Both the position numbers and the translations under genes were made by a program. From the NCBI RefSeq assembly GCF_041080815.1, contig NZ_CP160205.1, forward strand, positions 1,860,001 to 1,924,000: a stretch of DNA of 64,000 nucleotides. The letters are read 5' to 3'. The stretch comes from Mucilaginibacter yixingensis. Lineage in GTDB: Bacteria > Bacteroidota > Bacteroidia > Sphingobacteriales > Sphingobacteriaceae. The notes beneath the pieces are model-generated. The model searched no databases and was not told where the DNA came from. It was given only the letters and a program-made list of their open reading frames with translations. Shown here piece by piece: positions 5,268 through 53,421 of the stretch. The first letter of the stretch is position 1. The number at the start of each line of letters is the position of its first letter.

Positions 5268-6029
5268 TTAAAGTGTGTTTTGCAGATAGCTTTTTTCGGG
5301 CTCTGCGGGCCTTCTTTTTCTCATCGACTCTCCCTTTAGTTCCATCCGGTGCGCATCATGCACGATGCGGTCGAGGATAGCATCAGCGATCGTCTTTTCA
5401 CCAATGACCTCATACCATTTACTGACCGGCAGCTGAGAGGTGATGATCAGGGATGTCTTACCGTGCCTGTCCTCAATGATCTCCATCAGTGCGGCCCTGC
5501 TCTGCGCATCAAAAGGTTGTATACCGAAGTCATCCAGGATCAGTAGTTGCTGGCGTTCCAGTTTGGCTACATCCTTCATGTAGGAACCATCTGCCTTGGC
5601 CATCTTCAGCTTAGCAAAGAGTTTGGGTGTGCTGGCATAGAACACGCGGTAACCCAGTATGCAGGCTTGGTGTCCGATAGCAGAAGCGATATAGCTTTTG
5701 CCGATACCGGTGCTGCCTGTGATCAACAGGTTCTCATTCCGGTCAATAAAGTGGCAGTCTGCCAGGCGCATTACCTGATTGCGGTCGATACTACGGTCGG
5801 CATGGTAGTGGATGTTCTCTACCGAGGCCTTATAGCGGAACTTAGCATACATGATCGTACGCTCTATGCGCCTGTTCTGCCGGTCGTCCCATTCGGCCTC
5901 TACCAGGTGGGCCAGCAGTTCATCAGTGGTGTATTCTGCGGTCTGTCCCGTTTCCAGGCAGCTTTTAAAGGCATGGTACATGCCATAGAACTTCAGTTTG
6001 CGAAGTTTGTCTAAGGTGTTCGTGTTCAT
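5268..6029 (-). CDS. istB: IS21 helper ATPase IstB
   Basis: AAA+ ATPase that partners with IstA and directs IS21 transposition. At 253 residues it has the usual length. It shows Walker A ITGSTGIGKSYIA, Walker B LLILDDFGI, a conserved sensor segment LIITSQLP, and the DnaC/IstB-like N-terminus (LRKLKFYGMYHAF). It follows istA by 20 bp on the same strand, so the two are one operon. The reading frame is intact and the protein is likely functional. Confidence 0.95.
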   Translation of the reverse strand: MNTNTLDKLRKLKFYGMYHAFKSCLETGQTAEYTTDELLAHLVEAEWDDRQNRRIERTIMYAKFRYKASVENIHYHADRSIDRNQVMRLADCHFIDRNENLLITGSTGIGKSYIASAIGHQACILGYRVFYASTPKLFAKLKMAKADGSYMKDVAKLERQQLLILDDFGIQPFDAQSRAALMEIIEDRHGKTSLIITSQLPVSKWYEVIGEKTIADAILDRIVHDAHRMELKGESMRKRRPAEPEKSYLQNTL

Positions 6030-6049
6030 ATCGATCTGTTCATTAATGG

Positions 6050-7600
6050 TTATTTATAGTAGTTCTCTCCCCGGATATTGTCATGGCTGGGCATAGGCAG
6101 CTCGTCAGCAAATAAGCTTTCCTCGTAGCTGTCCATCTTGTTCTCCAGTATCTGCTGTATGGTCTTGTAGTTGTACACGCCATAGCCGAGCGCACGCCTG
6201 CAAGCGCTGGCCAGCCTTTCGTTACCTGCCTTGCGCGCCAGGCTGAGGATACCGATACAGGAGCGGTAAGCTTGTTCCGGATGTTGCTTTCGGTCCAGTA
6301 TCTTCAGGATGTAAAGCCTCACATCCTCGTGAATGGATGCTGCCCATTCCAGGAACTTATCGGGTGTCCATTCGGTCATAAAGCGGTGTGTCGAAGCCAG
6401 GTGATCTTTATCCGTTGTGTAGCTGTAAGGGCTTTTGATGCGCCTGTGCATGGCGATGCGTTCATAGTGGTAGTAGACTTCTACGTTGGTGCGGGAATAC
6501 AGCAGTTTGACCTTCCTGCCGATAAAGCGGTACGGTACGCTGTAGTAGTGTTTGTCGATACCCAGACAAACATGTCCGTTCTTCATTACAGTGGCCTGGT
6601 GCTGCCGTTTGAACTCATAACGTAATGCCGGTAATGGCGAGAGTGCCTGGCGTTCTATCTCCTCGAACTGGAGCTTTCTGCTGTAATTGCGGCCTTTCAG
6701 CGGCTGGCTGTTATGTGCTTCTAAAGCGACCTTGATCGCGATATTCAGTTCTGCAAGGGTATGATAGGCCTCTTTGCGAACAGGTGCGTAGATACGGCTG
6801 TAAACGATCTTAACGGCTCCTTCTACCAGTGCTTTGTCACGAGGGTGGTACGCCCTCGCTGGTAAGATGGTCGTTCCGTAATGGTCGGCAAAGTCAGCAA
6901 AGGTCTCGTTCAGCGTTGGCTCATAGCGGTTACTCTTGGTAACGGCAGCCTTCAGGTTGTCGGGAACGATGGCGGCAGGTACGCCGCCATAAAAGTGCAG
7001 GGCATTCTCACAGGCTGCTATAAAGTCTTCTTTCTGCTGGCTCAGCACAGCTTCTACGTAAGTTAGTTGGCTGGCGCCAAGGATAGCAACGAACACCTCG
7101 GCCTCGATGACCTCACCGGTATCCTTGTCCGCTATGCTTAGCTTTTCACCGGCAAAGTCCACATACAGCTTTTCACCGGCTTTATGATCCAGGTGCATCG
7201 TGGGGTTCACGCGGGCTTTCCACTGGTTGTAATAAAAGCAGAATTGGGTGTACTTGAACCCGTCAGGGAACTCTTTGATATAAGCTTCCCACAGGATGCG
7301 GCGGTTCATACCGACACGCTTTAACTCTTTATCTATCTGCGGGAAACAGCGTTGCAGGGCCACCATTCGCTTGTCCGGGGGACGTTCACTGCTTTTGCCA
7401 AAGAAGTCCTCCAGCTCCTTATCATTAAGGGTATTGATTTCCTCGAACGTAAAGCCGCTGGCATCGAACGCAATAAGGTACTTCTTTGCGGTATTGCGTG
7501 ACACGCCGGTCTGGGCCGCTATCGATAGCTTGCTGCGGCCCTGGCTGTACATCCTGAGGATCTGTCTTATCTTACTCATGCTTATCGTAGTGTTGGCCAT
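6050..7600 (-). CDS. istA: IS21 transposase IstA
   Basis: DDE-type transposase of 516 residues, the normal IstA length. An N-terminal helix-turn-helix (RQILRMYSQGRSKLSIAAQTG...) precedes an RNase-H-like integrase core, with Asp in LYVDFAGEKL, Asp in AAIVPDNLKAAV and Glu in PRDKALVEGAVK as the catalytic triad. A Mu-transposase C-terminal-like region follows (HKHYYSVPYRFIGRKVKLL). It reads through without interruption. Transcription runs leftward into istB. The 139 bp upstream (7601-7739) is the right IS end with its four binding repeats. Confidence 0.95.
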   Translation of the reverse strand: MANTTISMSKIRQILRMYSQGRSKLSIAAQTGVSRNTAKKYLIAFDASGFTFEEINTLNDKELEDFFGKSSERPPDKRMVALQRCFPQIDKELKRVGMNRRILWEAYIKEFPDGFKYTQFCFYYNQWKARVNPTMHLDHKAGEKLYVDFAGEKLSIADKDTGEVIEAEVFVAILGASQLTYVEAVLSQQKEDFIAACENALHFYGGVPAAIVPDNLKAAVTKSNRYEPTLNETFADFADHYGTTILPARAYHPRDKALVEGAVKIVYSRIYAPVRKEAYHTLAELNIAIKVALEAHNSQPLKGRNYSRKLQFEEIERQALSPLPALRYEFKRQHQATVMKNGHVCLGIDKHYYSVPYRFIGRKVKLLYSRTNVEVYYHYERIAMHRRIKSPYSYTTDKDHLASTHRFMTEWTPDKFLEWAASIHEDVRLYILKILDRKQHPEQAYRSCIGILSLARKAGNERLASACRRALGYGVYNYKTIQQILENKMDSYEESLFADELPMPSHDNIRGENYYK

Positions 7601-7660
7601 TAGTGAAGTTGTTAAACCTCAAAAATAGGCCTGCTTCTACAGCATATGTGGCTCGTTCGG

Positions 7661-7739
7661 GGTGGTCAGTTTCCTCCGAAATCAGGTGGTCACTTTCCCG
7701 CGGAATCGGTGGTCAGTTTGCGCCGAAATCAGGTGGTCA
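7661..7739. repeat. IS21 right-end transposase-binding repeats
   Basis: Four GGTGGTCA octamers begin at 7661, 7685, 7708 and 7732, spaced 23-24 bp. The element ends at 7739 exactly on a codon boundary of the downstream reading frame, so that frame stays open through the IS end from a GTG at 7662. Confidence 0.8.
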
Positions 7740-8324
7740 ATATCAGCGAATTCTCCATTAGAAGAAGAGAAAATTCTATCACGAAAGCTTTTAGAGAGTT
7801 CGGACATTGAACAAACAGATATTTTAGATTTTATAGAATTTCCAGACACAATACGTTACGACGATAAGAACTATATAAATCTTTCAATTTCATTTCCCAA
7901 TCACTTCCTTTTTAAAAGATTTAGAGAGAGAACCTTAGATTTACCTCACATTAATTGGTGTGTTTTGAAAATCAATCCTAAGTATATTTATTGTACTAAC
8001 ACTTTGTTTTCAGTAACAAATGCAGCATCTTCAATCGCAAAAAATCTGTACGGCATATCCGGTGACCTCTCAAAATTCAAACAATTATTTGATGATAATA
8101 TAACATCTAAATCTGGTGTAATCCCGAGGGGGATTTTAAATAAAAAATATCCTACGGATGTGCAAGCTGAGGTTCTAGTAAAAGATGAGATACTTGTTTC
8201 GGATGTATTGAGTATATGCTTTAAAGACGAGGAAAGCTTAGCTTCTGGAAAAGCCTCATTGTCTGGATATGATACGTCTAAATTCGTGATTGATTCATCC
8301 GTATTCTCAAATTTAAGAACATAG
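7740..8324 (+). pseudogene. DarT-like ADP-ribosyltransferase lacking its N-terminus
   Basis: The residues downstream of the IS end match the DarT/DUF4433 family as I know it: ILSRKLLE, then RYDDKNYINLSISFPN, INWCVLKINP, a TNAASS block, and KYPTDVQAEVLVKDEI with the conserved Glu of the ADP-ribosyltransferase fold. DarT toxins modify thymidine in single-stranded DNA with NAD. The family's first 20-30 residues (the IYHFT...ENL-type segment with the NAD-contacting His) are absent because the IS21 end sits there. The frame continues into the IS (GTG 7662), adding 26 foreign residues. The stop is 3 nt before the ADP-ribosylglycohydrolase start, so the two genes form one operon. It is probably an inactivated toxin; family assignment is by motif. 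Confidence 0.65.
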
Positions 8325-51236: not shown

Positions 51237-52427
51237 TTACGCTAATACTTCTTTCACACGCTCTGCAGCTTCTTTCAGCAGGATAGCTGAGAATACTTTC
51301 AGGCCAGAGTTGTCAATCAGTTCTTTAGCTTCAACAGCGTTGGTGCCTTGTAAGCGAACGATGATTGGCACCGGGATGTTACCCATTTCTTTGTAAGCAT
51401 CAATAACACCTTGAGCAACACGGTCACAACGTACAATACCACCGAAGATGTTTACCAGGATAGCTTTAACGTTAGGATCGCTCAGGATGATGTTGAAACC
51501 AGCCTTAACAGTCTGTGCGTTAGCAGTACCACCTACGTCAAGGAAGTTTGCAGGCTCGCCACCAGCTAGTTTGATGATATCCATTGTAGCCATAGCTAAA
51601 CCGGCACCGTTTACCATACAACCTACGTTACCATCAAGTTTTACGTAGTTCAGGTTGCTTTTGCTAGCTTCAACCTCTGTTGGATCTTCCTCAGCGGTAT
51701 CGCGCATTGCAGCATAGTCAGCATGACGGTACAGGGCGTTGTCGTCAAGGTTTACTTTGGCGTCAACAGCTAATATTTTATTGTCAGATGTTTTCAGAAC
51801 AGGGTTGATCTCAAACATTGAAGAGTCTGTAGCTTCATAAGCTTTGTACAGCGCAGCCACAAATTTGGTCATCTCTTTTAAAGCTTCGCCGCTTACGCCC
51901 AGGTTAAAGGCAATTTTGCGGGTTTGGAAGCCTTGCAAACCAACTTTAGGATCAACTTCTTCTTTAAAGATCAGGTGCGGAGTGTGCTCAGCAACTTCTT
52001 CAATATCCATACCGCCTTCGGTACTGTACATGATGATGTTACGGCCTTTAGCACGATCGAGCAGTACGCTCATGTAAAATTCTTTGGTTTCGCTTTCGCC
52101 AGGGTAATAAACATCCTGAGCTACCAGCACTTTGCTTACCAATTTACCTTCCGGACCGGTTTGCGGGGTTACCAGCTGCATGCCCAAAATATTGGTTGCG
52201 CGCTCTTTAACCTCGTCTAAGTTTTTGGCCAACTTCACACCGCCGCCTTTACCGCGACCGCCGGCATGAATCTGGGCTTTAATTACTACCCAGTCCGAAC
52301 CAAAATCTTCTTTCATTTTTTTTGCAGCTTCAACAGCCTGCTCAGGAGTTTCGGCAAGGATGCCTTCCTGAACCCTAACGCCAAAGCTCTTTAAAATCGC
52401 TTTGCCCTGGTATTCGTGAATATTCAT
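51237..52427 (-). CDS. sucC: Succinyl-CoA synthetase beta subunit
   Basis: TCA-cycle enzyme with an ATP-grasp fold, 396 residues as usual. Markers: [35 protein letters not shown] (nucleotide binding), [34 protein letters not shown] and [10 protein letters not shown] (CoA/phosphate loop). It is monocistronic here; sucD is not adjacent. Its upstream region carries the iteron hairpin array that starts 205 bp away. Confidence 0.97.
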
Positions 52428-52631: not shown

Positions 52632-53351
52632 CTGTCACGCGGTGTCACGGCTGTCACGCGTGTCACACACCGTGACACTTCAGTATTTAGTAATCGGAGA
52701 GAGAGAGTTAAGAATAAAGATGAAGTATATAAATATTACTATATAGATTACATCAATTGGCTGTCACGCCTGTCACGCTTGTCTTACACTATTACACGCG
52801 TGACAAGTGTGACAGTTCAGTATTTAGTAATCAGATAGAGAATTAAGAATAAAGATGAAGTATATATAATAGTAAGTCTTAAATCTCCTCAGTCTAAAGT
52901 ATCACTGTCACGCCTGTCACGCTTGTCTTACACTATTACACGCGTGACAGCCGTGACAGTTCATGATCTATAATTAATGAGATGATATAGAATGATGATA
53001 ATGTATATAATATATAGTATAAAAAATCAGATGCCGGATAGCTGGGGTTGGTTGTCACGGCTGTCACGCTTATTATAGTGTATGACGAGCGTGACAACCG
53101 TGACAGTTCATGATTTATAATTAAAGAGATGATATAGAATGATGATAAAGTATATAATATATAATATAAAAAATCAAATAATAGATAACTTGAGTTGATT
53201 GTCACGCTGTCACGGCTGTCACGCTTATTATAGTGTATGGCGAGCGTGACAAGCGTGACAGTTGAATAATGAGTAATAGTAAACAATTGCAAATGGCTGT
53301 CACGGCTGTCACGATTGTCACGGTGCGTGACAATCGTGACAGCCGTGACAG
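52632..53351. repeat. Six-unit array of TGTCACG iteron hairpins
   Basis: Six palindromic heads at 52632-52678, 52761-52815, 52905-52959, 53052-53106, 53199-53261 and 53297-53351, separated by AT-rich spacers. Start-to-start distance is 129, 144, 147, 147 and 98 bp. Each head is made of 9-bp CTGTCACGC-like iterons, inverted around a loop. In unit 6 the two 26-bp arms (53297-53322 and 53326-53351) pair perfectly around GTG. Units 2 and 3 share a loop, and units 4 and 5 share another; spacers 1-2 and 3-4 are alike. No cas genes, no spacer diversity and no convincing coding capacity. It is a protein-binding cluster or a structured repeat; function unknown. Confidence 0.9.
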
Positions 53352-53421
53352 TTGGGTATCTGCTGCAACAAACACTCACTATTCACCCCTCACAACTCAC
53401 TAAAATCCCTACATTTGCAGC

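Follow-up and report, generated by a model that had tools for sequence, protein, structure and literature searches.

Six heads, made of 9-bp words that share a TGTCACG core and run in both orientations, form an array of 720 bp between the sucC and lolD genes of Mucilaginibacter yixingensis; this array is probably an orphan, amplified cluster of iterons from an origin of the phage, satellite or plasmid type, standing without a replication gene. Its derivation from such a replicon is proposed from the sequence comparisons given below, and the orphan array may be a relic, may act as a decoy or may be replicated in trans. The window in which it was analysed is a stretch of 64,000 nucleotides, to which positions refer unless they are given for the chromosome. 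The two neighbouring genes are divergent, and the array occupies the gap between them:

51237-52427, minus strand: sucC, ADP-forming succinate-CoA ligase beta (NF001913, above cutoff); left neighbour, outside the array
52632-52679: head 1, four plus iterons (TGTCACGCG, TGTCACGGC, TGTCACGCG, TGTCACACA) and one minus iteron; weak hairpin
52680-52760: spacer 1, AT-rich, 26% GC
52761-52816: head 2, two plus and two minus iterons flanking TTACACTATTACAC
52817-52904: spacer 2, AT-rich, 25% GC, 78% identical to spacer 1
52905-52960: head 3, with a loop identical to that of head 2
52961-53051: spacer 3, AT-rich, 28% GC
53052-53107: head 4, loop TTATTATAGTGTATGACGAG
53108-53199: spacer 4, AT-rich, 16% GC
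53200-53262: head 5, three plus and two minus iterons, with nearly the loop of head 4
53263-53296: spacer 5, short, AT-rich, 24% GC
53297-53352: head 6, three plus and three minus iterons; perfect 26-bp stem with a 3-nt loop
53422-54075, plus strand: LolD-like ABC ATPase (best family LolD, below its cutoff); right neighbour, outside the array

The six-head array described by the first-pass annotation is real and lies where it was placed, with a clustering of words far above chance. The 720 bp hold 26 exact TGTCACG cores compared to 28 in the whole window, TGTCACGNNTGTCACG gives 14 matches at up to two mismatches against 0.13 expected by chance, and the array is the densest 7-mer cluster in a 464-kb sample of the M. 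yixingensis genome, the sample on which the genome-wide counts of mirrored words rest. The recurrence of 144-147 bp that had been assigned to the central four units applies to two of their start-to-start intervals (144 and 147 bp) and fails for the others, which measure 155 and then 90 bp; from unit 1 to unit 2 the interval is 119-129 bp, depending on the choice of anchor. The perfect stem and short loop of unit 6 were borne out. DNA folding z-scores relative to shuffled DNA range from -4.4 to -11.5 for units 2-6 and reach -1.3 for unit 1, which has only one right-hand iteron and is a poor hairpin. A 147-aa minus-strand open reading frame across the array (52936-53379) is repeat-encoded and was not taken as a gene.

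The units are clearly duplicated. Across 147 bp, units 3 and 4 share 84% identity, and kinship among the units is mosaic: spacer 1 resembles spacer 2 and spacer 3 resembles spacer 4, while one loop is common to heads 2 and 3 and another to heads 4 and 5, in agreement with the stepwise duplication read from the loops by the first-pass annotation. The spacers are direct rather than inverted repeats of one another. Against this background of duplication, the words themselves have changed little. Among the 28 iterons compared (29 matches were listed, one of which is an overlap artefact), the 7-bp core shows only two clear changes and the two linker bases are highly variable. Core divergence between the neighbouring units 2/3, 3/4 and 4/5 amounts to 0-4% of positions, compared to a spacer divergence of 22% between units 1 and 2 and 43% between units 2 and 3; the spacers of units 3/4 and 4/5, scored in a class labelled 'headother', differ by 20% and 38%. 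A near-invariant core between varying linkers and spacers upholds the earlier view of the heads as iteron-like candidate binding sites under selection. Furthermore, the stem mismatches in units 2-5 fall mainly at linkers. With the core kept and the stem broken at linkers, putative protein-binding sites fit the heads better than an RNA hairpin does. This constraint may have been imposed in a donor element and not in the present chromosome.

Duplicated units are also what a neutral palindromic minisatellite would leave, in which a word is mirrored via template switching and amplified by slippage or recombination, and agrees only by chance with an iteron word of phages. This reading is possible, though on balance unlikely, and the near-constant core amid diverging linkers and spacers argues against it. 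The relatives give it further support. The pattern is absent from all 99 other genomes of one sample and from all 394 other Bacteroidota genomes of a second, although Alistipes metagenome-assembled genomes (MAGs) do have it; when 150 genus genomes were searched at the DNA level, just two marginal matches fell outside the genome of the array. Among the sampled genomes the array is thus species-specific, and the syntenic sucC-lolD gap, which spans 994 bp in M. yixingensis, mostly measures 157-315 bp in relatives. In six of the 22 syntenic relatives (L018, L019, L029, L030, L034 and L041) this gap contains mirrored short words of other sequence, so that mirroring is not in itself unique to the array and some general process makes palindromic minisatellites there; these words, however, mostly have a 7-bp period instead of 9. 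Mirrored periodic words of other sequence also occur once within 400 kb of the own genome. At ~1.6265 Mb of the chromosome (L252, 6532-6615) a mirrored periodic hairpin consists of TGAGTGG-like words with perfect 27-bp arms, and at ~4.874 Mb (L264, 14189-14837) a dense cluster of CAGCAAC/CAGCAGC 7-mers covers ~650 bp and is possibly a repetitive coding region. The first-pass annotation had held that absence from close relatives would mark the array as neutral repeat expansion. Relatives do lack it, and by that measure it would be neutral, but the recent acquisition of mobile DNA also fits the absence.

Within the 5.36-Mb chromosome all 12 exact double words belong to the array locus; a second TGTCACG locus is absent, with the remainder of the genome at background even at two mismatches. 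The suggestion of a mobile REP-like palindrome fails on this single locus, as REP and REPIN sequences would have dispersed copies, and on the distance to a RAYT-type partner: the genome has three Y1_Tnp genes, the nearest ~1.05 Mb from the array. A nucleoid or segregation site, which had also been considered, is not supported by the parS motif TGTTTCACGTGAAACA, absent from the array and present as a single perfect site at chromosomal position 4,982,906, nor by location: in sampled GC skew the origin falls close to the start of the contig and the terminus at ~2.4-2.9 Mb, and the array, at position 1.91 Mb, lies at neither. A chromosomal origin or terminus was rejected as well. A CRISPR array was rejected because the spacers are homologous to each other and not unrelated. 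Compared with integron attC sites, palindromes are present, and the spacers (33-92 bp) are too short for gene cassettes. Cyanobacterial short tandemly repeated repetitive (STRR) sequences are short intergenic tandem words dispersed over many loci; the array likewise consists of short tandem words between genes, but it is mirrored and confined to one locus. At curated thresholds Rfam gave no match to the array. Elsewhere in the window, an IS21 element (5268-7750) comprises IstB (5268-6029) and a transposase (6050-7600), and 24-bp tandem repeats of GGTGGTCAGTTTCCCCCGAAATCA in 3-4 copies (7661-7750) presumably form its end.

The position between divergent genes and the iteron-like constraint on the core would also suit a cluster of binding sites through which a regulator or nucleoid protein resident in the cell controls sucC or lolD. 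We regard this as extremely improbable, given that no other genomic copy rises above background, even at two mismatches, and that relatives keep the gene pair, with its mostly 157-315-bp gap, in the absence of such sites.

The preferred reading as an orphan iteron cluster draws on the occurrence of the same words at phage-type replication genes. Using a query pattern of two words and one mirrored word, all 9-mers, mirrored TGTCACG was found in 86 viral-contig stretches, which are partly redundant and include a Delftia/Comamonas group resembling one repeated coding sequence, and in 55 genome stretches, whereas four scrambled-word controls gave 6, 6, 3 and 0 in viral contigs. The words lie at or inside the 3' end of a helicase/primase gene (-500 to +300 bp from that end) in 43 of the 46 matched loci that hold a homologue of the query set; as this set came from word-bearing loci, it is the 3'-end position that is informative, and the mere presence of the gene is not. 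Of the first ten such proteins, nine contain AAA_25 (PF13481), often fused to Prim-Pol or Toprim, and in several other loci the words lie within or behind O-like, DUF1376, DUF3987 or DUF927 replication genes. At the phage loci L114 and L167, too, the words form mirrored groups separated by AT-rich spacers. More generally, the putative origins at AAA_25, Prim-Pol and O-like genes (for example L114, L167, L073, L104 and L045) share the word TGTCACGNN and its mirrored order with the array, and some of them its AT-rich spacers, but they adjoin or overlap the replication gene or sit in a phage genome, whereas the array stands alone between housekeeping genes. The strong enrichment of the exact word at replication regions relative to scrambled words also speaks against a neutral minisatellite. 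Nevertheless, a coincidental 7-bp match produced by a minisatellite process that is evidently active in the genus is the main rival and our strongest doubt.

The layout was at first thought to belong to no described family, which proves too strong, since it matches the replication-iteron clusters of phage-type helicase/primase replicons. As in iteron origins generally, the array has multiple short repeats with a conserved core (28 iterons) and adjacent AT-rich DNA (all spacers at 16-28% GC, compared to ~45% genome-wide). A cognate initiator or helicase gene, which iteron origins have next to them, is missing: sucC and lolD are the only flanking genes, and no replication, integrase or phage gene adjoins the array. 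DnaA boxes (TTWTNCACA), present in many iteron origins but not in all, number zero in the array. SaPI origins are of the iteron type and lie downstream of a rep gene. In SGI1, a Salmonella genomic island, the oriV iterons lie immediately downstream of rep (PMC7433901). In SGI1 oriV as in the array, short iterons in tandem and stretches of AT-rich DNA occur together in a chromosomal element; the array differs in its 9-bp mirrored words and six heads, and in having no rep, integrase or island. The PLE satellite of Vibrio cholerae has iterons and a repeat-based origin that is used in phage infection (PMC7145576); like the array it is chromosomal and repeat-based, but it carries a RepA_N initiator of its own among other genes. 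As a nucleotide query against plasmid and phage collections, the array, spacers included, gave zero matches, and in relatives its spacers gave no more than marginal ones; these searches found no donor element, and a literature search for the word returned nothing relevant.

The helicase 3'-end rule predicts words at the AAA_25 gene of M. yixingensis itself, and this was borne out with a different word. The best AAA_25 match of the genome (~5.26 Mb; L232/L352) is followed, 11 bp beyond the stop codon, by mirrored TGTTGCA words, and the same gene at ~5.263 Mb has further TGTTGCA words near its 5' end and a transposase-like open reading frame next door. In viral contigs mirrored TGTTGCA occurs in 74 stretches, a count that has no scrambled control of its own, and it lies at the 3' end of a helicase homologue in 15 of the 17 loci with such a gene. 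Among the 150 genus genomes three carry mirrored TGTTGCA: that of M. yixingensis, one in which it is linked to AAA_25 and one in which it is gene-less. In one genus relative the words follow an AAA_25-like gene by 16 bp, and in another (L350, 1490-1610) a gene-less TGTTGCA array lies between fumarase-like and hsdM-like genes, as named from their translations. In the genus, the 3' flank of a gene for a 373-aa ATPase of the AAA_25 type (L240) has mirrored AAACCTTA words around a CCCCTATATATATAGGGG palindrome, a layout resembling the TGTCACG-CCCTATAGGG sites of phage loci.

Gene-less copies are also found with the TGTCAC-type heads of Alistipes, where units bounded by inverted repeats occur at L045 (4090-5910), L219 (1479-2272) and L229 (1295-2094), one of them with a single AAA_25 gene. 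In the L045 unit this gene is framed by ~200-bp inverted repeats that include the heads, and the same MAG holds related gene-less copies at other intergenic sites; a second Alistipes MAG has a gene-less array between gyrB and a HAD-type gene. Such modules do, then, lose or lack their gene. The Alistipes inverted-repeat units are possibly an undescribed mobile element. A reading of the M. yixingensis array as a terminal-inverted-repeat element of the L045 kind is not supported, as its spacers are direct repeats.

If the array is an orphan origin module, a cognate initiator would bind the 9-bp TGTCACGNN words in tandem, the mirrored groups would load it in both orientations, and the AT-rich spacers would serve as unwinding elements. 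The cognate gene is deemed missing from the chromosome because the one AAA_25 gene that is comparable has TGTTGCA words instead, and the array would normally be silent. Upon entry of a TGTCACG-type element, it could titrate the initiator of that element or undergo unwinding in trans; the binding and unwinding of the array, like any consequence for an invader, are predictions. A chromosomal decoy, kept to titrate the replication initiators of invading TGTCACG-type phages, would agree with the multiplied heads and constrained cores, and has a conceptual precedent in ectopic copies of the lambda origin, which block lambda (PMC4488673). However, those copies were engineered and plasmid-borne, unlike a natural chromosomal array, which here is a single locus in one genome that is not conserved in relatives, and phages of this host are not known to use TGTCACG. 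A decoy function in this strict sense is accordingly very unlikely. The wider proposal, that the chromosome keeps a gene-less amplified phage-origin module acting in trans on invading phages, either by soaking up their initiator or as a minimal, non-coding satellite that is unwound and copied, is speculative and has a small chance of being right.

Were the derivation from phage-type origins correct, mirrored 9-bp iterons such as TGTCACGNN and TGTTGCANN, when they lie immediately behind a helicase/primase gene, would mark where many phages and mobile elements start replication, which would help to find phage origins from sequence alone. Gene-less copies of such origin modules would then sit in bacterial chromosomes, and the existence of natural origin decoys or minimal satellites would become an experimental question.
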